Numbered from the stretch's first letter, positions 21,052-30,514 are shown. The stretch is DNA of 37,475 bases from Hadesarchaea archaeon (GCA_029259185.1 JAPDJF010000036.1:1-37475); one strand, 5' to 3'. The notes: a model not told the origin generated them from the letters alone. Numbers and translations: made by a program.

Positions 21052-22260
21052 CTAAGATGAACTCAACCCATATTTTTCAGCTATTTCGAAGAACGCATCT
21101 CTTACCTTTCTTATCTTCTCCCAGTCCAAACCATAGGTGTTGAGCTTGAAGTGTTTGGATAACCCGGGTTGGATGCCTACGATGCCTCGTTCTCGTAGCT
21201 CCTCGTAAAGAAAGTATCCCCTTCGCTTGTGGGTTTGGGATACCCTGTAAAATCCATCCGATTCGAAGTGGATCAGCGTGTGTTGCTTTGGCTTAGTACC
21301 GAGTTGTTTCATGCCTTCGATCCGCTCAAGCTCTTCAACCAAAAACCTTGCTTTTTCCACCTCTTCTTGCCACCGTTCAACTCGTTTGACCACGTAGGGA
21401 AATGATGCCATCAGCGATAAGAGAGGTGCACCCATCACCGTACATCCGAGCAAAGCGTACTCCTTAAGTCCAAATTTGCGTTTGCTCCAATCTCCCGTTA
21501 TCTTAGATCTCGCCAGCACCCGGTCGGCTAATTCCTCCTTAAGTGCCAAGATCCCAGTCGGTGCACTCGCCGCCCAACTCTTGTGTCCACTGCTCACGAG
21601 AATATCCACACCGAGTTCTTTGCAGTTTATGGGCATTATCCCCGCAGTATAAGCGGCATTCAATAGAAAGGGCACGCCGTATTCCTTACATATCTTTCCC
21701 ACAATTCGTGCATCGTTGAGATTCCCGTACAGATAGTCAACATGGGTTAGAAGCACGACTGCTGGAAGCTTGCCCGTTTCTCTTTTGACCTCTTCTATTT
21801 TTTCAGCATATGCGCTGAGATCCACCTTGAACTCCGGGTAGCCGGTGTGGGGAACCTCCTTAATCCTCAGACGGGCTAGCTCTGCGGCGAGGTAGCTCGA
21901 ATAGTGAGAAAGACCGTCTAAAACCACATAATCACCGGGCTCCCCCAGGGTTGTGAATGCTATGAACTTCGCCTCCCTGCAACGGGTCACAACTCTCGCG
22001 ACATCCATTCCCAAGAACTCTGCTAGATCTCTCATGAATTGAGCTATGGGGGGACGTTCAACCGCATCGAGTCTAGGGGTTTTGGGGGGACACCAATCAC
22101 AGGTGGAGTATCCATCGCCAAACTCGAGCAGTACCTTCCGTGCGGCGTCTGTGAGCACTCCCCCACGCTGGATGGGGTGAAGGTTGATATATTTCTCCTC
22201 TTTAAACTCGCGTCGGAGATGAAGATATCGTTCGAGTCTCTCATTCGGAATTCTTAACAT
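21052..22260 (-). CDS. Sep-tRNA:Cys-tRNA synthase (SepCysS)
   Basis: SepCysS converts O-phosphoseryl-tRNA(Cys) to Cys-tRNA(Cys) with a sulfur donor and PLP. Taking MLRIPNERLE as the start (ATG at 22260; AAGGAG about 8 bp upstream; 2 bp after the E1 stop) gives 402 aa. Cys54 and Cys57 (TCDWCPP) and Cys273 (GCTVMGAP) correspond to the essential Cys trio of the family. Lys227 (SGHKSWAASAPTG) is the PLP lysine. An in-frame ATG at 22287 would overlap the previous gene. Its presence implies that this archaeon makes cysteine on tRNA, with a SepRS elsewhere in the genome. It is in one run with the E1-like and MMP8 genes. Confidence 0.9.
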   Translation of the reverse strand: MLRIPNERLERYLHLRREFKEEKYINLHPIQRGGVLTDAARKVLLEFGDGYSTCDWCPPKTPRLDAVERPPIAQFMRDLAEFLGMDVARVVTRCREAKFIAFTTLGEPGDYVVLDGLSHYSSYLAAELARLRIKEVPHTGYPEFKVDLSAYAEKIEEVKRETGKLPAVVLLTHVDYLYGNLNDARIVGKICKEYGVPFLLNAAYTAGIMPINCKELGVDILVSSGHKSWAASAPTGILALKEELADRVLARSKITGDWSKRKFGLKEYALLGCTVMGAPLLSLMASFPYVVKRVERWQEEVEKARFLVEELERIEGMKQLGTKPKQHTLIHFESDGFYRVSQTHKRRGYFLYEELRERGIVGIQPGLSKHFKLNTYGLDWEKIRKVRDAFFEIAEKYGLSSS

Positions 22261-22262
22261 GC

Positions 22263-23039
22263 TCACATCTCCTTTCTCCTTCTGCACACAGGACAGTTAA
22301 GATTTCGTTCGAGCTTTATTTCGTCAAAGCTCATATCCTTACCATTGAAAACGAGCATCCGTCCCACCAAAGGCTTGCCTATCTTCGTAATGAGCTTGAT
22401 CGCTTCCATCGCTTGAAGACAACCCATTACCCCTGGCGTCGCACCGAGTACGGGGAAAACCGGTCGGGTGGGTGGCTCCTTGGGTATAAAACATCTGAGA
22501 CATGGGGACTTACCAGGTACAATCGTCACAAGCTGCCCCACCAATCCTTCAACCGCAGCATGAATGAAGGGTATACCGAGCCGCACGCAAGCCTCGTTCA
22601 GCAAGAACCTAGTAGGGTAGTTATCCATTCCATCGATGACGATGTCCGCCCCCCTAAGGAGTTCATCCACGTTCTCACGAGTTATCCTTTTTTGTTCACC
22701 CTCGACCTTAACGTTCGGATTGATCGCACGTAATTTTTCAACAGCCGATTCGATCTTGGAGCGATCGATATCTGCCTCCCAGTGTAGTACTTGACGATTG
22801 AGGTTCGTCAGCTCCACCAGCTGCTCATCGATTATCCTTAAGTATCCAACACCCGCTACGGTGAGATATATGGAAGATGAACTTCCCAACCCACCTACTC
22901 CCGCTACCACCACGCGAGCCCTCTTCAGCTTAAGCTGTGCTTGTTTACCAAAACTAGGAATGATCATCTGTCGGTTGTAACGTTTAAGTTCCGCTGGCTT
23001 CAGTGTGGCAACATGAAGCTTTTTTTTCATGACGGACAT
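22263..23039 (-). CDS. E1-like adenylyltransferase (ThiF/MoeB/UbaA family)
   Basis: A 258-aa HesA/MoeB/ThiF protein. RYNRQMIIPSFG opens the fold, with VVAGVGGLGSSSS (46-55) as the ATP motif and VELTNLNRQVLH and IDGMDNYPTRF as the adenylate and acceptor-binding segments. CLRC (180-183) and CPVC (249-252) give the structural zinc. Such enzymes adenylate the C-terminal Gly of a ubiquitin-like carrier (ThiS, MoaD or SAMP) so it can be thiocarboxylated. A ThiS/MoaD-like carrier is encoded 1.3 kb away (24318-24524). It overlaps the end of the MMP8 gene by 13 bp. Confidence 0.88.
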   Translation of the reverse strand: MSVMKKKLHVATLKPAELKRYNRQMIIPSFGKQAQLKLKRARVVVAGVGGLGSSSSIYLTVAGVGYLRIIDEQLVELTNLNRQVLHWEADIDRSKIESAVEKLRAINPNVKVEGEQKRITRENVDELLRGADIVIDGMDNYPTRFLLNEACVRLGIPFIHAAVEGLVGQLVTIVPGKSPCLRCFIPKEPPTRPVFPVLGATPGVMGCLQAMEAIKLITKIGKPLVGRMLVFNGKDMSFDEIKLERNLNCPVCRRRKEM

Positions 23040-23905
23040 TCACCCCCTGTTTTATTCCATTTTACGAAAGAGGGAATGGAGGTCTTTCCCCCCTCGACTG
23101 CCAACAGTTTCCCTCTCTTCAAAACAATCTTTTCTTGGATCCTTAAGATCATTTCCCCAAATCCGGTCAAAGCATAAGCTGGAATGTTCTTTCCGAAAAT
23201 CGCCCTAGCCCTGGGACCGATCGATTTCCTCACCACTCTGGATGCACATGCGTACACGATATCCGCTTTTTCGATGAATGGAATCAAATTCTCTTTCACT
23301 CCCGTGGTATGGATCACGAGTATGAGGAAAGCTGCCCCACTCTCCCCTTCGAGTCCCCTCATCGCTGGGATCAATCCAGCATCAGAACCCATAACCGTCA
23401 CACCGATTTTAGTATATCCGGCCGCCAAAGCCTCCTCAACCCCCTTGAGCTGATTTATTTCAGCGGTGGAGGGGTCCAACACCCTCGCTTCTCTCTCCAT
23501 GAGTTTTTCTATTACCGCTGGAATGGGTGTAGTCTCAATGAGTGCACTCATTACCATACCACTCCCCTGGACAACCGATGGTTCCTCTGATGATGGTACC
23601 AGCTCCATCACACATCGTTACGGCCGCTTCGATGAGCCCTTCCTTTAGAGCCGTTGCCAGACATTCAGAGGCTCCGAACCCAACGCCGAAGCTCTCCATC
23701 TCCACGAGTCTTCGAGAAGTACACAATCCAAAGAGCGCGATTCTCCGCTCCATAGACTTTCTAACACTCTCCACGGTTTGCTATCTACCCGCATGCTCGA
23801 AAAGAATATCGGGCAGAACTTAGTTTTGGGTTCCTCAACCGAGATGACTCCCCCTCCGCTGACAATGATTCTCGCTTTTGCTACCTCCCACACATGTCTA
23901 TCCAT
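23027..23905 (-). pseudogene. Methanogenesis marker protein 8 (DUF2099), split by two frameshifts
   Basis: ATG at 23905 (GGAGAGG just upstream) starts MDRHVWEVAKARIIVSGGG in frame A, up to FCPIFFSSMRVDSK. The homology then continues in frame B as TVESVRKSMERRIALFG to CDGAGTII, and returns to frame A at EEPSVVQGSGMVMSALIETTPIP through the stop at 23027. The first shift is at a three-A run (reverse-strand AAA) near 23777-23779, where a fourth A would restore the frame. The second is near 23600. MMP8 is found mainly in methanogens and close relatives and has no firm function. Whether the breaks are genuine or assembly errors cannot be told here. Confidence 0.72.
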
Positions 23906-24097
23906 GCCTCTCCACATTCGATGATACAAAAAGCTGTAGATGCTAAGAGGGAATATCCACAAGGAGCTGAGCACAATGTGCACAACGCATACCTTCTATT
24001 TCAAGAACTATTTCTTCAGCGATCTCTCCCACTTGATCTCCGCTTTCTTGATATAACAGCGTTAAAATTTAAAAGGTTTCTTTTTAACAGTTCAACG

Positions 24098-24316
24098 ATG
24101 GTCAAGGTCAGATTTTTCGCCCCTCTAGAGAACTCGCGAAGAGAATCAGAGGTGAGAAACATGTGTTCTCCCCTGAGGATTCCCCCTGAACGTGGAAGAA
24201 AACCCCGAGAGGAACCCTCCCTAATGCCTGAAAAGAAAATCAAGTGGTTTCAAAATCTGGATACAATAGATGGACGAGGATACTGTATCGATCCTTCCCC
24301 AGTTGGTGGTGGATAA
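24098..24316 (+). pseudogene. MoaD/ThiS-like carrier gene, degraded by several frameshifts
   Basis: The ATG at 24098 starts MVKVRFFAP, the usual MoaD opening. One frame over, RELAKRIRGEKHVFSPED continues it. In another frame is IKWFQNLDT, and then DEDTVSILP and finally PVGGG with a stop at 24314-24316. A MoaD-type protein would end in such a GG tail. At least three frame changes are needed; one is solved by one more C in the run before AGTTGG. This looks like a decayed gene just upstream of the intact carrier, but local sequence errors are possible. Confidence 0.55.
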
Positions 24317-24317
24317 A

Positions 24318-24524
24318 ATGAAAGTCAAGGTCCGAGTACTCGATGATCTTGAAGAGAAAGAAGTGGAATTGCCCGAGCGTTCCAAAGTTAGAACACTTCT
24401 ACTCGAACTCAAATTGAGAGAGGAAGGAATAGTCGTTATTCGAGATAGAAAGATCCTGAGGAAAGAAGAGAGCCTGCAAGATGGTGACAGGATCAGGATC
24501 TTACCTATCGCGATCGGGGGATGA
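24318..24524 (+). CDS. ThiS/SAMP-like ubiquitin-fold sulfur carrier (68 aa)
   Basis: ATG at 24318, right after the stop of the degraded MoaD-like gene. It encodes a beta-grasp protein, MKVKVRVLDDLEEKEVELPE, with RSKVRTLLLELKL in the middle and QDGDRIRILPIAIGG at the end. The C-terminal Gly-Gly is where an E1 adenylates and thiocarboxylates the carrier. It can donate sulfur for thiamine, molybdopterin or tRNA thiolation, or serve as a SAMP protein modifier. The E1-like gene is at 22263-23039 and the cysteine desulfurase at 25526. A GGTGGTGG stretch precedes the ATG. Confidence 0.8.
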   Translation: MKVKVRVLDDLEEKEVELPERSKVRTLLLELKLREEGIVVIRDRKILRKEESLQDGDRIRILPIAIGG

Positions 24525-24534
24525 AGTTGCACTT

Positions 24535-24660
24535 TCATTTTCCGGTATAAATTTTTTGTTCCTGCTCTCGAAGGAGCTTGCCGATCTCTCGGATGGGTTT
24601 AATCGTGCCGATTTCGTCGTTGACGTTGGCCAAAAGGAGAATGCTCGCGGGTAAGAAAGA
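24535..24660 (-). pseudogene. Fragment resembling a NifS/IscS-type cysteine desulfurase
   Basis: On the minus strand a frame reads SILLLANVNDEIGTIKPIRE and IGKLLREQ, then stops at 24535. This matches the NNEIGTIQPI-EIG stretch of NifS/IscS proteins. It is only about 40 residues and lacks the PLP lysine and catalytic Cys. The intact desulfurase of this window has a different version of the same stretch (NAVGSIQPVEEIGKIA), so it is not a simple copy of that gene. Confidence 0.45.
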
Positions 24661-24667
24661 CCCTCGG

Positions 24668-24811
24668 TCAAATTTGTCTGAGGGTAAAGCCGTTGAACGA
24701 GTAGCTAAACGAATTGGAATTTCTTATGGTCTTTTTCAGCAGGTGCTCTGACTCCTCGATGGCTCGCTTGTAGACGATGGCGTTGTAAACGGTTCTGGGA
24801 GAAATTTTCAT
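24668..24811 (-). CDS. Short helix-turn-helix-like reading frame (47 aa)
   Basis: The frame from ATG 24811 to TGA 24668-24670 reads MKISPRTVYNAIVYKRAIEE then SEHLLKK. The SPRTVYNAIVYKRAI part looks like a recognition helix. The frame continues upstream without an obvious start, through the palindrome at 24828-24856. It may be part of a degraded regulator or transposase, or not coding. Support is limited. Confidence 0.25.
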   Translation of the reverse strand: MKISPRTVYNAIVYKRAIEESEHLLKKTIRNSNSFSYSFNGFTLRQI

Positions 24812-24827
24812 TTCATCGGCGACATAC

Positions 24828-24856
24828 CCAATAACTGCAAAATTTGCAGTTATTGG
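24828..24856. repeat. 29-bp perfect inverted repeat
   Basis: The arms CCAATAACTGCAAA and TTTGCAGTTATTGG (14 bp each) flank one central base. It is too tight for a normal RNA hairpin, so a protein-binding site or a rearrangement junction is more likely. The stretch 24857-25042 that follows holds no recognisable gene; it is AT-rich and has a weak inverted pair TTGGTAC/GTACCAA. Confidence 0.6.
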
Positions 24857-25042
24857 TTTCAGAAAAAGGATATAATTGAAGACGTCTCAGCCGAAATCAG
24901 GGCCGTTATTTCCAAAGTGAAAGCCAAAAGTATTTTGACTTCCGTTTGGTTGGTACAAAATATTTGAATTCAGAAGCAAGGGACACCCACTCGCGATTCT
25001 CAGTAAAACCGTACCAAATAACCGTTTTAAATAAATTCTCGA

Positions 25043-25372
25043 TCACGCTCTTCCATGACTAATTTTTTCTTTTTTTATCCTAGTACAGATATGACAATAC
25101 ATCCGGAGTATCTGTTCTCCCTCAACTTTTCCACTGGCTATTGCATCTGATAGCTCTCTCAAAGGTTTTTTCACCCCCCACTTTCTGATCGTCCTAATGT
25201 ATCCTGAACCTCGCAACTCGTTCAGATATTGGCTTACCGCAGGCTGGGTAATACCAAGCTTTTTCGCAACCTCGGCCTGGGTAAGCTTGTGACGCTTAAC
25301 GAGATCCCTCACGAGCATCGCCCTAAGAGCCGGAAGGACGTGTTTAGTGACGATTTCACAAGGTGGTCTCAT
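25043..25372 (-). CDS. HTH transcriptional regulator (COG2522-like) with a C-terminal CxxC
   Basis: A 109-aa protein. It opens PPCEIVTKHVLPALRAMLVR, and the DNA-binding helices are TQAEVAKKLGITQPAVSQYL. A basic stretch follows and the C-terminus has MYCHICTRI with Cys93 and Cys96. Cys5 lies at the N-terminus. Together these could bind a metal or Fe-S cluster; that is an inference. It is divergent from the cysteine desulfurase gene, sharing a 153-bp spacer, so it may regulate sulfur or Fe-S genes. Confidence 0.75.
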   Translation of the reverse strand: MRPPCEIVTKHVLPALRAMLVRDLVKRHKLTQAEVAKKLGITQPAVSQYLNELRGSGYIRTIRKWGVKKPLRELSDAIASGKVEGEQILRMYCHICTRIKKEKISHGRA

Positions 25373-25493
25373 CCTAGTCCCATAACAATGTTAACTTTTA
25401 CTTAAAAAATCTAGGATACCCAATAGACCATCGAATCTACCTACCACAAGTTTTGAGTTCCTCTATCTCTCTCAAATCTGACTTTAGATAACC

Positions 25494-25502
25494 GATTTAT
25501 TG
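25494..25502 (+). promoter_or_regulatory. TATA-like promoter of the cysteine desulfurase gene
   Basis: GATTTATTG lies about 30 bp before the ATG at 25526, a usual spacing for an archaeal TATA box with a leaderless or short-leader transcript. The rest of the 153-bp spacer is AT-rich and must also hold the promoter of the divergent regulator. Confidence 0.4.
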
Positions 25503-25525
25503 TCTCTGGATAATATCTGGTCTGA

Positions 25526-26728
25526 ATGACGAAGGGTGTTGACGAGGTTCGCGCTGAAATCCCATTCCTGCAAACCGGAATCATTTATTTAGATAGTGCC
25601 GCAACGACGCCAACACCGCGACCGGTTATCGATGCCATGCTCGAGTATTTCCATGAGTTCAGCGCGAACGTTGGAAGGGGTCTACACTGTGCCACCAAAA
25701 TGGCAACTGAAGCATTTGAAGCTACTCGAGAGAAGATAGCCAAAATCATCCACGCAAAACCCAAAGAAATAGCTTACACCAAAAACACGACCGAAGCGAT
25801 AAACATCATCGCCCAAGGACTGAAGTGGCGGAAGAACGATAAGATAATAACCACGATCCTAGAGCACCATAGCAACCTCCTTCCTTGGCAACGTTTAAAG
25901 CAAAAGGGGATCGAACTCGAAGTGATTAAACCACTTACGAAGGAATGTTTGATAGACCCGGCTACGGTAGAGGCGACGATCGATGCTAAAACCCGTTTGA
26001 TCGCAATCCATCACGTTTCCAATGCTGTAGGGAGTATCCAACCAGTAGAAGAAATAGGAAAAATAGCAAGAGATAATGGGATAATCTTCCTAATCGATGC
26101 CGCCCAGTCGGTGGGGCACATGCCTGTTGATGTCCGAAAACTCAAATGTGACTTTCTAGCTGCACCGGGTCACAAGGGGCTGTTAGGGCCCCAGGGTACG
26201 GGTTTCCTCTACGCACGGGAGGATCGATGGAACGAACTCGAACCGTTATTGGTAGGCGGGGGAATAGTAAAGGATGTAGACATCCTCCATCACGAACTCG
26301 TTGATCCCCCCCAACTTTTCGACGCCGGAACACCAAACATCCCTGGTATAATCGGTCTCGGTCGTGCGTGTGAGTATGTGGCGGAGATAGGTATAGAGCG
26401 GATTGCCAAGCGTGAAAGGATGTTGACCAGACGGATCTTAAAAATTTTAGATATCGAGAATGTAGAAGTCTATGGCCCCCGTCATGTCAACCGGAGGGGA
26501 GGAGTCATTAGCTTTAACGTCAAAGGATTAAACCCACACGACGTAGCATCGATGTTAGACGAACTCAAGAGGATAGCCGTCCGCTCTGGCCATCATTGCG
26601 CCCAGCCCACCATGCGGTACCTCGGTGTCCAAGGAACGGTGCGAGCTTCGGTGCACTACTTCAACACAGAAGATGAAGTGGATAAATTCGTAACAACTAT
26701 CGAACAAATAGCGGGAGAATTCGGTTAG
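25526..26728 (+). CDS. Cysteine desulfurase, SufS/CsdA-type
   Basis: A 400-aa class V aminotransferase-fold protein. The PLP lysine is Lys217 in APGHKGLLGPQGTG. The catalytic Cys358 lies in RSGHHCAQP, the SufS-type context. DAAQSVGHMPVD supplies the Asp and Gln that hold PLP. It transfers sulfur from cysteine to scaffolds and carrier proteins. Its neighbours (E1, ThiS-like carrier, SepCysS, homocysteine pair, NifU-like scaffold) are all sulfur-linked. Strict methanogens that use sulfide often lack such an enzyme, so its presence beside SepCysS is worth noting. Confidence 0.9.
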   Translation: MTKGVDEVRAEIPFLQTGIIYLDSAATTPTPRPVIDAMLEYFHEFSANVGRGLHCATKMATEAFEATREKIAKIIHAKPKEIAYTKNTTEAINIIAQGLKWRKNDKIITTILEHHSNLLPWQRLKQKGIELEVIKPLTKECLIDPATVEATIDAKTRLIAIHHVSNAVGSIQPVEEIGKIARDNGIIFLIDAAQSVGHMPVDVRKLKCDFLAAPGHKGLLGPQGTGFLYAREDRWNELEPLLVGGGIVKDVDILHHELVDPPQLFDAGTPNIPGIIGLGRACEYVAEIGIERIAKRERMLTRRILKILDIENVEVYGPRHVNRRGGVISFNVKGLNPHDVASMLDELKRIAVRSGHHCAQPTMRYLGVQGTVRASVHYFNTEDEVDKFVTTIEQIAGEFG

Positions 26729-26737
26729 TAACTCTCT

Positions 26738-27142
26738 TTACAGTTTAGACGATATCCGAAGAGCGCGGACTGGGCACATAGATACACAGACCTCACAACA
26801 TATGCACTTTTCCTCATTCAACTCCAACGAGAAATCCTGATTCAACCGAAGAGCTTTAGTCGGACACACCGAGATACAAGCCCCACAGTCAAAGCACAGC
26901 TCCCTGTCCAGCTCAATAGTCCTCTCCGTTTCCCATACCTCTACCCCCTTCTCTCTAAAGAGGGTGAGAATCCTGTCCATTTCGGCCTCTGAGGCGTCGA
27001 AAGATATCAAAATCTCCCCCCCCTTCCCCGTGATATTCGCATACAAAATATTGACGAGCAAGCCACTCTCTTTGATGACCGAAGCTAGTATTGGCTCTTC
27101 GGCCTTCTGTGATGAGTACCTTATAAACACCTTTCTTTTCAC
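26738..27142 (-). CDS. NIL-domain ferredoxin, homocysteine-synthesis partner (MA1822-like)
   Basis: A 134-aa protein. Residues 1-70 form an NIL domain (FIRYSSQKAEEPILASVIKE, with LLVNILYANI). Two [4Fe-4S] motifs follow: CFDCGACISVCP and CICCEVCVSMCP. In Methanosarcina the homologue MA1822 works with the DUF39 protein MA1821 in making homocysteine from aspartate semialdehyde and sulfide. The start overlaps the DUF39 gene stop by 4 bp, so the pair is translationally coupled. Confidence 0.88.
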   Translation of the reverse strand: MKRKVFIRYSSQKAEEPILASVIKESGLLVNILYANITGKGGEILISFDASEAEMDRILTLFREKGVEVWETERTIELDRELCFDCGACISVCPTKALRLNQDFSLELNEEKCICCEVCVSMCPVRALRISSKL

Positions 27143-28653
27143 TTCTTTCTCCTCCCTAAAAGTCTTGAGATGTCTTCACTCGTGAGTATCCCTTTTACCT
27201 CCATCCCGCTATTGACCACAGGTACACCCGAGATCTTGTGCTTTTCCAGCGTCCTGGCCACGAAGTCGACCGGTTCATCTTCATGGGCTGTAATAACCCT
27301 TGTCGTCATTACTTCAGAAAGTCTGTTTTTCTTCGTCCCTATGGAAGTAGCGATGTCCCAAGATGTCACTATACCAATGAGCTTTCCTTTTTCGTCAACG
27401 ATCGGCAAATGATCGATATTTTTCTCCCTCAGGATCTTGGCTGCCTCCGCGATCGGATAGTCCGCCCTGCCCGTTATCACCTCTTTTGTCATCACGTCCC
27501 TGACCAAAGGAGTAACTTCAGCCTGCTTCATCGGCCTACAAACGCTATCGCTCGGTAATCTTTGGAGAGGTTGGGATAACAAAAATTCTCCTCTCTCTAT
27601 CCACTCCTTCAGGGTTAAGGCTATTTCTCTAGCCAACTTGAAGCTTCCTAGTGGGCTAACCGGGACCGACTTACCAGCGAGCTCGATTTCGCCCGATCTG
27701 AGTTCCGCATACGAAACCTCTCTCAGCACGGGTCTATCCCTCCTGGGGACACCGTAGTCCAGAACTTCTGTCTTTATTTGGGTCTCATCGAGCCCAGCAC
27801 TCTGGGCGATCCTTTCGTTGAGGATCGGGATGGGAACTCCGAGTCCTACATAAAGTGATGTCCCATACCGATGGATGGTGCACCCACGCAGATACCGAGG
27901 TTTCATCTGCTTCAGATCCCCCACCACCGCTATCGTTCCCAGTCCCCGCTTTGGGTCGTGCTGGGTCCCTTCCCAGAATATGTATCCCTTCCCTCCACCT
28001 AGGAATATCCGTGTACCTATTCCTATCGTCTCGTAAGTGGGATCTTTGGTGAGAGGGCTCAGCACCCCAGCTCCGGAAAAGGTGACATTTCCAAAATTCG
28101 GTAAAAGCATTCCCATATAGGTGTAGATCGTTTCATCACGTGAATTCGCGGCTGCACGGTAGCGCTGATAAGCGTTGCGTGGGCTACAGAGTATTGCCTG
28201 ATTCAGATCCTCGATCGTGATCACCGTCTCTATTTCCTTCCTAGGATAGCAGTCAGTACTATACCCCCTACCGCGGAGTACCACTTCCCTACCTCGGACC
28301 AAATCTTCGATGACATGCCCTCCACCGTACTCCATTCCCCTGCTCACAGACATAGAAGTGGCACCAATGTACGTATCCACCGCGGCGAGCCCAGCATAGG
28401 CAGGTACATCATTCAGGTATATCTCCCCCCCACCGAACTTGATCGGGGGATCCGAGTGACCAAAATTCAAGAATGCACCGGAGCTGCACATCGCCCCGAA
28501 TGTACCGGTTGTGACCACATCGACTTCTCTCGCTGCCTTGACCGAACCTTTTTCCTTAACTATCTGAACCATCTCCTCTGCCGTTACCACTACCGCATCG
28601 CCGCTCCGTATGCGCTCGTTTATGTACTCAATCGTTTTCTTTACCTCGGTCAT
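27139..28653 (-). CDS. DUF39-CBS protein, L-aspartate semialdehyde sulfurtransferase (MA1821/MJ0100-like)
   Basis: A 504-aa protein. Residues 1 to about 370 form the DUF39 (homocysteine synthesis) domain, with AMCSSGAFLNFGHSDPPIK, YIGATSMSVSRGMEYGGGHV, GYSTDCYPRKE and LGGGKGYIFWEGTQH. Two CBS domains follow (VRDVMTKEVITGRADYPIAE to the end). The Cys residues of MCSSG and TDCYPRKE are candidates for sulfur handling. The enzyme makes homocysteine from aspartate semialdehyde together with the NIL ferredoxin. The C-terminal CBS pair suggests control by an adenosyl ligand such as SAM, as in MJ0100. Confidence 0.9.
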   Translation of the reverse strand: MTEVKKTIEYINERIRSGDAVVVTAEEMVQIVKEKGSVKAAREVDVVTTGTFGAMCSSGAFLNFGHSDPPIKFGGGEIYLNDVPAYAGLAAVDTYIGATSMSVSRGMEYGGGHVIEDLVRGREVVLRGRGYSTDCYPRKEIETVITIEDLNQAILCSPRNAYQRYRAAANSRDETIYTYMGMLLPNFGNVTFSGAGVLSPLTKDPTYETIGIGTRIFLGGGKGYIFWEGTQHDPKRGLGTIAVVGDLKQMKPRYLRGCTIHRYGTSLYVGLGVPIPILNERIAQSAGLDETQIKTEVLDYGVPRRDRPVLREVSYAELRSGEIELAGKSVPVSPLGSFKLAREIALTLKEWIERGEFLLSQPLQRLPSDSVCRPMKQAEVTPLVRDVMTKEVITGRADYPIAEAAKILREKNIDHLPIVDEKGKLIGIVTSWDIATSIGTKKNRLSEVMTTRVITAHEDEPVDFVARTLEKHKISGVPVVNSGMEVKGILTSEDISRLLGRRKK

Positions 28654-28785: not shown

Positions 28786-29421
28786 ATGGAAAGATTGATT
28801 CGGCCATCCGAGATCAAGCCTCTGCGGGTGAAACTTGGCTTGACCCAAGCTCAGCTTGCCAGATTGTCGGGAGTGACCCAAGCATATATAGCGAAAATCG
28901 AAGCCGGACTCGCGGATCCAAAGATTTCGACCATTGAGAGGATTTCAAATGCCCTCGCCAGATCCGTTCCTGCTAGGAGCGGAGGGAAAAAAGGACTCAC
29001 CGCTGAACAGATGATGACCTCACCGATAATTCACGTGAAGCGGGGCGATACGATAAGGCACGCCATAAAGCTCATGCGGACTCACGATATCTCCCAATTA
29101 CCGGTACTCGAAGGTGGGATACAGGTAGGTTCAATATCCGAAGCCATTCTCATGAAAAAGATAACCGCGGGGGGGAATGTCGAAAAACTCGTTAGGAGCA
29201 CGGTAGAGAGGATGATGGAAGCACCATTCCCAACCGTGAACAGGGATACTAATGCATACATCGTGTACTCCATCCTCGAACATAGTCCAGCCGTTCTCGT
29301 GGTGGATCGGAGCCGTGCGGTGGGGATCATCACCAAGGCTGATGTGCTCCGGTTGATGGTGAAGCCAAAACATGTGGAGAGAGGTGCAACAAGGAAATAT
29401 CGAGATCTCGTTAAAGGGTGA
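28786..29421 (+). CDS. XRE-type HTH regulator with two CBS domains
   Basis: A 211-aa protein. The N-terminal HTH spans about 8-54 (LRVKLGLTQAQLARLSGVTQAYIAKIEAGLADP). Two CBS domains follow, from EQMMTSPIIHVKRG to the end at about residue 195. CBS pairs sense adenosyl ligands. It is divergent from the homocysteine-synthesis gene across a tandem palindrome, so it likely controls that operon and itself in response to SAM or AMP/ATP; this is an inference. Confidence 0.85.
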   Translation: MERLIRPSEIKPLRVKLGLTQAQLARLSGVTQAYIAKIEAGLADPKISTIERISNALARSVPARSGGKKGLTAEQMMTSPIIHVKRGDTIRHAIKLMRTHDISQLPVLEGGIQVGSISEAILMKKITAGGNVEKLVRSTVERMMEAPFPTVNRDTNAYIVYSILEHSPAVLVVDRSRAVGIITKADVLRLMVKPKHVERGATRKYRDLVKG

Positions 29422-29431
29422 AAGGGAAAAC

Positions 29432-30514
29432 ATGAATCAAGCAGGGGATCCGCAAACGATGAAGATAGAGCTCCTTTGCCGGGGGGCGCGAACCAAGGGA
29501 ATTTACAGGGGGAGGAGATGGGGAGCTGGCCCCTCGGGTGGCAGGTGTGTGATGTTCCAAGATGGTGATGTTCTTAACATCCCATTGAGGGGGAGATTCG
29601 TCAAAAAATCCCCGTTCGAACTGAAAGGGAAAGACGGAAGGTGGGAAGTGTATAGGTCTGGAAAAGCTATGACTAGTGTATCACCCATTCCCTTGCCTAG
29701 GTTTTACCAGAAGAGGACCTCGGACGGAATTCCTATGTACAAAGTAGCCAAGCTCCACGGTAAAGATTGCCTGGCCACCACCCTCCTCTCAACTTGCTGG
29801 AGATGGAGACAAGGCAAGGCATGCAAGTTCTGTGCGATAGAAATCCATGGAGAGAAAAGGCCGCTAATAAGAAAAAGCGGGAAACAGCTGGCCGAAGCAG
29901 CCAAAGTCGCGATGGAAGAGGGGGTAGCGAAACACATGACGATAACCACGGGAACCAATCCCTCCCCCGACAGGGGTGCGATGATGCTAGCGGGAGTTGT
30001 GGAGGAGATCAAGGGCTCGGTGGAAATTCCTATCGAAGTTCACCTAGAACCCCCCGAGGATCTGGAAGTTCTGGATACCCTGAGGGGGGCTGGGGTGGAT
30101 GGGGTGGGAATCCATCTGGAGTTCTTCGACGAAAAGATTCGGAAGGAGGTATGTCCCGGAAAAGCTGAGATCGGGAGGGAGGAATACATCAAATCTTGGA
30201 AAGAGGCTGTGAGAACATTCGGTAGGCTCCAAGTTAGCTCTTTCCTCATAGTCGGCCTCGGGGAATCCGAGCAAAGTGTTGTTGGCGGAATCGAAACACT
30301 CTGCAAGCTGGGGGTGGTTCCCCATGTCGTTCCCTTCAGACCGATTCCGGGTACCCCGCTCGGTGATCTGGATCCGCCCGATCCTAAACGTCTGGTAAAG
30401 ATATATGAAGAGATGGAGCGAATGTACAAACGCTATAGGATATCTCCTCGGAAAGTGAGAAGTGGTTGTGCTAGGTGTAGGGCCTGTGGGATCGACGCAC
30501 TAATTCCGTTCTAG
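29432..30514 (+). CDS. Radical SAM protein, MSMEG_0568-like family
   Basis: A 360-aa protein from ATG 29432, 10 bp after the XRE-CBS stop. The cluster-binding cysteines are C122, C131 and C134 in CWRWRQGKACKFCAIE, a Cx8CxxC arrangement rather than the usual Cx3CxxC. I recall the MSMEG_0568-like family having the same kind of spacing, but that needs a search. SAM-binding strand features (EVHLEPPEDLEVL, GVGIHLEFFD) fit the radical SAM barrel. A C-terminal CARCRACG may bind a second cluster. The substrate is unknown. Confidence 0.7.
   Translation: MNQAGDPQTMKIELLCRGARTKGIYRGRRWGAGPSGGRCVMFQDGDVLNIPLRGRFVKKSPFELKGKDGRWEVYRSGKAMTSVSPIPLPRFYQKRTSDGIPMYKVAKLHGKDCLATTLLSTCWRWRQGKACKFCAIEIHGEKRPLIRKSGKQLAEAAKVAMEEGVAKHMTITTGTNPSPDRGAMMLAGVVEEIKGSVEIPIEVHLEPPEDLEVLDTLRGAGVDGVGIHLEFFDEKIRKEVCPGKAEIGREEYIKSWKEAVRTFGRLQVSSFLIVGLGESEQSVVGGIETLCKLGVVPHVVPFRPIPGTPLGDLDPPDPKRLVKIYEEMERMYKRYRISPRKVRSGCARCRACGIDALIPF

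Follow-up and report, generated by a model that had tools for sequence, protein, structure and literature searches.

Recurrent pairing of SepCysS with a ubiquitin-type E1 enzyme in archaea and its possible bearing on sulfide assimilation

In a stretch of 37,475 nucleotides from a Hadesarchaea archaeon (GCA_029259185.1, JAPDJF010000036.1:1-37475; hereafter the window), the gene for Sep-tRNA:Cys-tRNA synthase (SepCysS) directly follows that for an E1-like adenylyltransferase. Our results revealed that this pairing of SepCysS with E1 is real, recurs among archaea and lies far above chance. A preliminary description of the window had placed SepCysS, the E1-like enzyme, a Gly-Gly-ended (GG-ended) ubiquitin-like carrier, a cysteine desulfurase, a NIL-domain ferredoxin and a DUF39-CBS protein within 8 kb, and all six are indeed found at 21052-28653 with profile matches. 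We consider, with a probability of about 0.45, that the E1 and its carriers form a module supplying activated sulfur to a conserved sulfide-assimilation cluster for cysteine and homocysteine. Which donor gives SepCysS its sulfur in the cell is still unsettled, with none named in the consulted papers, and the donor is discussed below as a separate question.

The SepCysS-E1 pair across archaea

The window is contig C16 of the source genome (G000), which is a 1.27-Mb metagenome-assembled genome of Hadarchaeota with 95% completeness. In a set of 101 genomes, 36 have both SepCysS and E1, and the two genes lie within 5 kb of each other in 19 of them against 0.5 expected, and within 300 bases in 14. 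Counted by genus, an E1 is within 5 kb in 10 of 23 against 0.35 expected, with a Poisson tail of about 6e-12, a statistic which assumes independent genera although the genera are not fully independent. Moreover, 147 loci were fetched around SepCysS matches from 394 genomes, a few of them without an open reading frame above the SepCysS threshold, and in an unsupervised clustering of the neighbours the E1 ranks first, with 32 loci within 5 kb from 19 genera and 12 families. The pairing proposed from one window thus withstood the survey which could have dismissed it, and no earlier description of it was found in the searched literature text, in agreement with the preliminary description, which knew of no such operon.

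The E1 is on the SepCysS strand in 27 of the 32 linked loci. Among the 80 loci with names, it is divergent from SepCysS in nearly all those of Methanomethylicota, and one Candidatus Sifarchaeum of an Asgard lineage also has a divergent pair; further linked loci belong to a Thermoprotei archaeon, Methanohalophilus, Methanococcoides and Hadarchaeota. In the E1 tree, which has long branches and unsettled bootstrap and for which only the starred groups were used, the SepCysS-linked E1s spread over several supported clades and at least nine changes of the link label have to be assumed along the starred branches. This suggests that the association either arose repeatedly or is ancient. A chance juxtaposition in a metagenome-assembled genome, or a mis-assembly, is a highly improbable explanation: a frame-broken DUF2099 gene in the region does tell of rearrangement or errors, yet an E1 lies at most 300 bases from SepCysS in 13 other genomes of the same order (Hadesarchaea/Hadarchaeota), and the pair recurs in other phyla. 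It is rejected by this recurrence for the E1-SepCysS pair only, which leaves the carrier and the desulfurase of the window outside the rejection.

Two types of operon surround the pair. In type B, seen in Hadarchaeota, the order is DUF39-CBS, NIL-ferredoxin, COG2122 (UPF0280), a carrier ending in FPPVAGG, E1 and SepCysS, so that the carrier and E1 genes stand between COG2122 and SepCysS. In type A, found in families f5, f11, f16, f26, f59, f88, f119 and some of f3 (for example loci L065, L102, L164, L127 and L156), the order is a threonine-synthase-like (ThrC-like) gene, a carrier ending in PAVSGG, (CxxCxxCC), E1, TusA, DUF169 and SepCysS, with variations; the type A E1s mostly have the catalytic cysteine. 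As a separate observation, DUF169 has a median gap of -4 to SepCysS over 16 genera. The window itself holds a broken or rearranged type B cluster, because COG2122 of the source genome lies on a separate contig (C31), the best homologue of the operon-type carrier lies on C22, and other genes stand between the two halves. What is kept in the window is the junction of the pair: the E1 stop codon (TGA, 22265-22263) precedes a good SepCysS ATG at 22260 by 2 nucleotides, with AAGGAG upstream, and the two genes are therefore likely to be translationally coupled.

Enzymes, carriers and the role of the E1/carrier module

The E1 of the window is the sole PF00899 protein of the genome. The family match covers its full length, the GxGxxG and both CxxC zinc motifs are present, and the nearest solved structures are ThiF (1ZFN/1ZUD) and MoeB (1JW9). 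It scores below the curated equivalog cut-offs for MoeB, ThiF and UbaA alike, and is a general E1 to which no specific name can be assigned. In an alignment including 1ZFN it has no residue at the column of the thioester cysteine (ThiF Cys184, UbaA Cys188), which is missing in its clade too, and for this reason it looks like an adenylation-only enzyme. The catalytic cysteine is dispensable in MoeB, which works by adenylation without it. The lack of this cysteine was considered as a special mark of SepCysS loci and rejected, since many unlinked archaeal E1s are also without it.

As for SepCysS, numbered from its GTG start, Cys63, Cys66 and Cys282 are kept in nearly all homologues (2 exceptions and 5 alignment gaps among 142), and the lysine for pyridoxal phosphate (PLP) is in SGHKSW within an invariant block. 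A loss of these persulfide cysteines in the E1-linked forms would strongly favour a thiocarboxylate donor, and was rejected by the conservation in the same alignment. The partner SepRS is present on C24 (TIGR00470, 531 bits). In the 95%-complete genome no cysteinyl-tRNA synthetase scores above cut-off, and none of the four PALP proteins is CysK or CysM, their best matches being ThrC, TrpB, TrpB-like and cysteate synthase. A CysO/CysM/Mec-type thiocarboxylate pathway to cysteine is rejected for this genome, which is without an O-phosphoserine or O-acetylserine sulfhydrylase. SepCysS is thus the only detected route to cysteine at this completeness, and it follows that sulfur derived from cysteine by a desulfurase cannot be its net source. 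Short of an uptake of cysteine, an input of sulfide is therefore required. The genome also encodes, at G000:C18:19417-20292 (L308), a cysteate synthase scoring 454 against a curated cut-off of 324.9 bits, which is part of coenzyme M synthesis.

The carriers need a more careful account. Five proteins of the genome belong to PF02597, and four of these end in GG. The carrier of the window, with 68 amino acids from a start at 24318 that follows GGTGGTGG, ends in LPIAIGG and combines the beta-grasp family with the C-terminal GG as expected for ThiS/MoaD proteins. Its orthologue in the sister genus (G001) is the middle one of a MoaD-type array of three carriers, after a MoaD-like carrier ending in FPPVGGG and before one ending in LPPAAGG. 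In the source genome these other two are still together on C22, where the flank resembles a candidate aldehyde:ferredoxin oxidoreductase gene, a name without family-search confirmation. Since its orthologue sits in the array and its partners remain on C22, the carrier of the window appears to have left a cofactor-type array, and its nearness to SepCysS is without conservation. Another GG-ended carrier gene adjoins an NcsA/TtuA-type PP-loop ATPase. That the window carrier is the operon carrier is rejected by strand, by subfamily (SAMP2/ThiS-like against the operon type) and by the position of its orthologue. The preliminary description had regarded a thiocarboxylated carrier made by the co-transcribed E1 as an attractive candidate donor of SepCysS; in relatives the E1 ahead of SepCysS does have a GG-ended carrier immediately upstream or as part of a fusion protein, and GG-ended carriers near SepCysS at other loci share its strand. 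Hence the specific link of this carrier with the E1 is lost while the general link of carrier and E1 stays.

In several Hadarchaeota the fusion joins PF02597 and PF00899 in one protein of 339 amino acids. The carrier GG is internal in the fusions at L053:8333-9352, L054:1832-2842, L055:3336-4355 and L059:1096-2115, and it is conceivable that such a protein is a precursor cleaved to give a free carrier. In Hadarchaeota genomes with the fusion, a JAMM protease gene is 3 bases from SepCysS. This protease as the cleaving enzyme was rejected, for the co-occurrence is weak (8/10 against 3/12, p = 0.03, uncorrected for relatedness).

From this gene content a mechanism may be outlined. The core of the Hadarchaeota cluster comprises DUF39-CBS and NIL-ferredoxin for homocysteine, COG2122 for sulfide trafficking, a MoaD-type carrier, E1, and SepCysS for cysteine on tRNA. 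Most probably the E1 would adenylate the carrier C-termini, which sulfide or a persulfide would convert to thiocarboxylates, and the ATP-activated sulfur pool so formed would feed the synthesis of cysteine and homocysteine as well as the ordinary clients of an E1, namely the tungsten/molybdenum (W/Mo) cofactor and tRNA thiolation. COG2122 has been proposed, in passages of PMC5764234, to persulfidate both DUF39 and SepCysS. By analogy with TtuB, whose thiocarboxylate passes sulfur to the [4Fe-4S] cluster of TtuA as described in parts of PMC7138817, the carrier might recharge a disulfide/persulfide or an iron-sulfur (Fe-S) site of SepCysS at Cys63, Cys66 and Cys282. Carrier thiocarboxylates may thus form and reach SepCysS or DUF39, delivery to SepCysS being plausible, if unproven. 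That the thiocarboxylate made with the neighbouring E1 is the physiological donor of SepCysS in archaea with linked genes is only a tentative proposal, rather unlikely in our estimate. We are just as doubtful of its consequence, in which ATP-activated sulfide would be put onto serine-derived carbon on tRNA, and the whole cysteine of the cell would come by a route that is fed by the carrier and needs no desulfurase.

Several observations weigh against sulfur supply by the E1 and its carriers, and some of them suit the explanation that the genes share only their regulation, with a general MoeB/ThiF E1 for W/Mo cofactor and tRNA thiolation placed there as a sulfur-responsive gene, and SepCysS using sulfide or a persulfide from COG2122 and never a thiocarboxylate. 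We regard this explanation as quite possible, though short of an even chance. The single E1 faces four GG-ended carriers, one beside the PP-loop ATPase and two in the candidate oxidoreductase-type array, and it probably charges several of them, a view already put forward for TK2117. In three genomes of the same order (G001, G007 and G012), E1 orthologues from the clade of the window E1 are neighbours of MoaE and not of SepCysS, which suggests that the same E1 there serves molybdopterin or tungstopterin, and E1-MoaE pairs occur also in families f25 and f30; pairing alone therefore cannot prove that SepCysS is the target. The operon carrier scores as moaD_arch. The persulfide cysteines of SepCysS are retained in E1-linked and unlinked forms alike, and several SepCysS lineages among the named loci have no E1 nearby. 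M. jannaschii and M. kandleri are without such carriers, and M. jannaschii has SepCysS, so that a thiocarboxylate donor cannot be universal. Moreover in the window itself the carrier is outside the E1 operon and is divergently transcribed, on the strand opposite to E1 and SepCysS. However, shared regulation would predict clustering with any sulfur gene, yet the E1 is the top-ranked neighbour; the pairing recurs with non-orthologous E1 clades; the type A operons have TusA and DUF169 with no MoaE in view; and in two genomes (G016, G017) the operon carrier exists alongside another MoaD-like carrier and a shorter one.

It might also be that the module feeds homocysteine synthesis only, through DUF39-CBS in type B or through the ThrC-like PLP enzyme in type A, comparable with the thiocarboxylate route of Wolinella, and that SepCysS is carried along passively within a regulon for Cys and Met. 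In most of the linked operons the carrier and E1 genes are indeed flanked by DUF39-CBS and NIL-ferredoxin or by ThrC-like genes, and bacterial Ubl-E1-TusA operons (Ubl, ubiquitin-like protein) with sulfhydrylases are known (PMC1779556). On the other hand, in Methanomethylicota the pair stands by itself, and neither a homocysteine gene nor ThrC was detected next to it; moreover, by their scores the ThrC-like proteins are genuine threonine synthases. This explanation is improbable in our view. Returning to the supply of activated sulfur to both cysteine and homocysteine synthesis, the pair recurs in Methanosarcinales, in an Asgard lineage, in several more families and in both Hadarchaeota and Methanomethylicota, and this points to a part for E1/carrier chemistry of the ubiquitin type when sulfide is assimilated. 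If this is true, thiocarboxylate chemistry would feed translation itself; if it is false, E1 and carrier still join the archaeal set of sulfur-assimilation genes. In either case the linked pairs offer genes for deletion in tractable methanogens, by which the question of the SepCysS sulfur donor becomes testable.

Layout of the window

The features are collected in Table 1. The six genes do stand together as described at first, though they form not one operon but two tight minus-strand runs, DUF39-CBS/NIL-ferredoxin with an overlap of 4 bases and DUF2099/E1/SepCysS also overlapping. The carrier and desulfurase genes are on the plus strand and thus outside both runs; between the runs lie the desulfurase, a winged helix-turn-helix (HTH) gene, the carrier and the frame-broken DUF2099 gene, of which the HTH and DUF2099 genes had been overlooked. 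The DUF39 protein with two CBS domains and a NIL + Fer4 partner is the combination by which L-aspartate semialdehyde sulfurtransferase is recognized, and the role of the ferredoxin is taken from passages of PMC12068725 and PMC5764234.

Table 1. Genes at and beside the sulfur cluster of the window, with positions counted from its first nucleotide
Feature	Position	Strand	Evidence
SepCysS	21052..22287	-	TIGR02539 523.7 bits (cut-off 365.25); likely start ATG 22260
E1-like adenylyltransferase, MoeB/ThiF type, without thioester Cys	22263..23039	-	PF00899 241.8 bits
DUF2099/methanogenesis marker 8, probable pseudogene	23027..23920	-	PF09872 matches in three frames
GG-ended ubiquitin-like carrier, SAMP2/ThiS-like	24318..24524 (listed start 24270)	+	PF02597 40.6 bits, PF21965 22.7
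Winged-HTH regulator, cluster c19	25043..25372	-	HTH family matches
SufS-like cysteine desulfurase	25526..26728	+	PF00266 434 bits; TIGR01979 425 bits, below cut-off 475
NIL-domain ferredoxin, MA1822-like subunit of L-aspartate semialdehyde sulfurtransferase	26738..27142	-	PF09383 46.3, PF00037 46.8 bits
DUF39/HcyBio with two CBS, MA1821-like homocysteine synthesis enzyme	27139..28653	-	PF01837 480 bits, PF00571 x2
XRE-CBS regulator, divergent from DUF39-CBS	28786..29421	+	HTH-like N-terminus, CBS-like repeats in translation

In the DUF2099 gene the PF09872 positions 1-35, 42-104 and 106-252 are each in a different frame, and an intact copy is elsewhere in the genome (G000:C8:14818-15576); the gene beside E1 is probably a decaying paralogue, or else a product of assembly errors. 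The winged-HTH protein has a C-terminal CHIC motif, and its homologues are near SepCysS, E1 and IscS-type desulfurase genes in families f1, f3 and f30, so far as its sequence and neighbours tell a candidate sulfur-responsive regulator. The XRE-CBS reading frame matches the HcyCBS profile through its CBS part and is a possible regulator of DUF39-CBS. A radical S-adenosylmethionine protein of the MSMEG_0568 family is encoded at 29372-30514 on the plus strand (330.7 bits against a cut-off of 303.7).

Comparison with known systems

The closest known set is that of methanogens, where MA1821/MA1822 (L-aspartate semialdehyde sulfurtransferase), MA1715 (COG2122) and SepCysS correspond to the DUF39-CBS, NIL-ferredoxin, COG2122 and SepCysS found here. 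The Hadarchaeota relatives differ in having one directional operon with carrier and E1 inserted before SepCysS, and the source genome in having COG2122 on another contig; the searched passages of the papers on this set make no mention of E1 or carrier. For clade VII SepCysS loci in methanogens and MSBL1/Hadesarchaea, a frequent proximity to "a few sulfur metabolism genes" is noted by Mukai et al. 2017 (PMC5424206), the main text of which, as far as searched, names neither ThiF, MoeB nor ubiquitin-like carriers. Makarova and Koonin (PMC2948915), with far fewer genomes at that time, reported no new strong link for the archaeal E1. In Thermococcus, TK2117/TK2118 are similar in that a single archaeal E1 is thought to charge several carriers, but the consulted parts of PMC11323500 deal with the cofactor and with tRNA thiolation and do not connect the E1 with SepCysS.

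In the TtuB/TtuC/TtuA system of tRNA thiolation, a thiocarboxylated carrier likewise serves an Fe-S enzyme working on tRNA (passages of PMC7138817). The fold and chemistry are different, however, with an ATP-pyrophosphatase acting on a base there and a PLP enzyme acting on an aminoacyl group here, and the likeness is an analogy only. More similar in gene content are the bacterial Ubl-E1-JAB-cysteine synthase and Ubl-E1-SirA/TusA operons (PMC1779556), for example CysO/CysM/Mec of Mycobacterium and the HcyS pathway of Wolinella, while archaeal ThiS genes were without a conserved neighbourhood in the same study. As in the archaeal loci described above, these operons place an E1 and a GG carrier, often with JAMM and TusA, by an enzyme inserting sulfur into an amino acid; the difference is that the candidate acceptor here would be SepCysS, the substrate of which is bound to tRNA.

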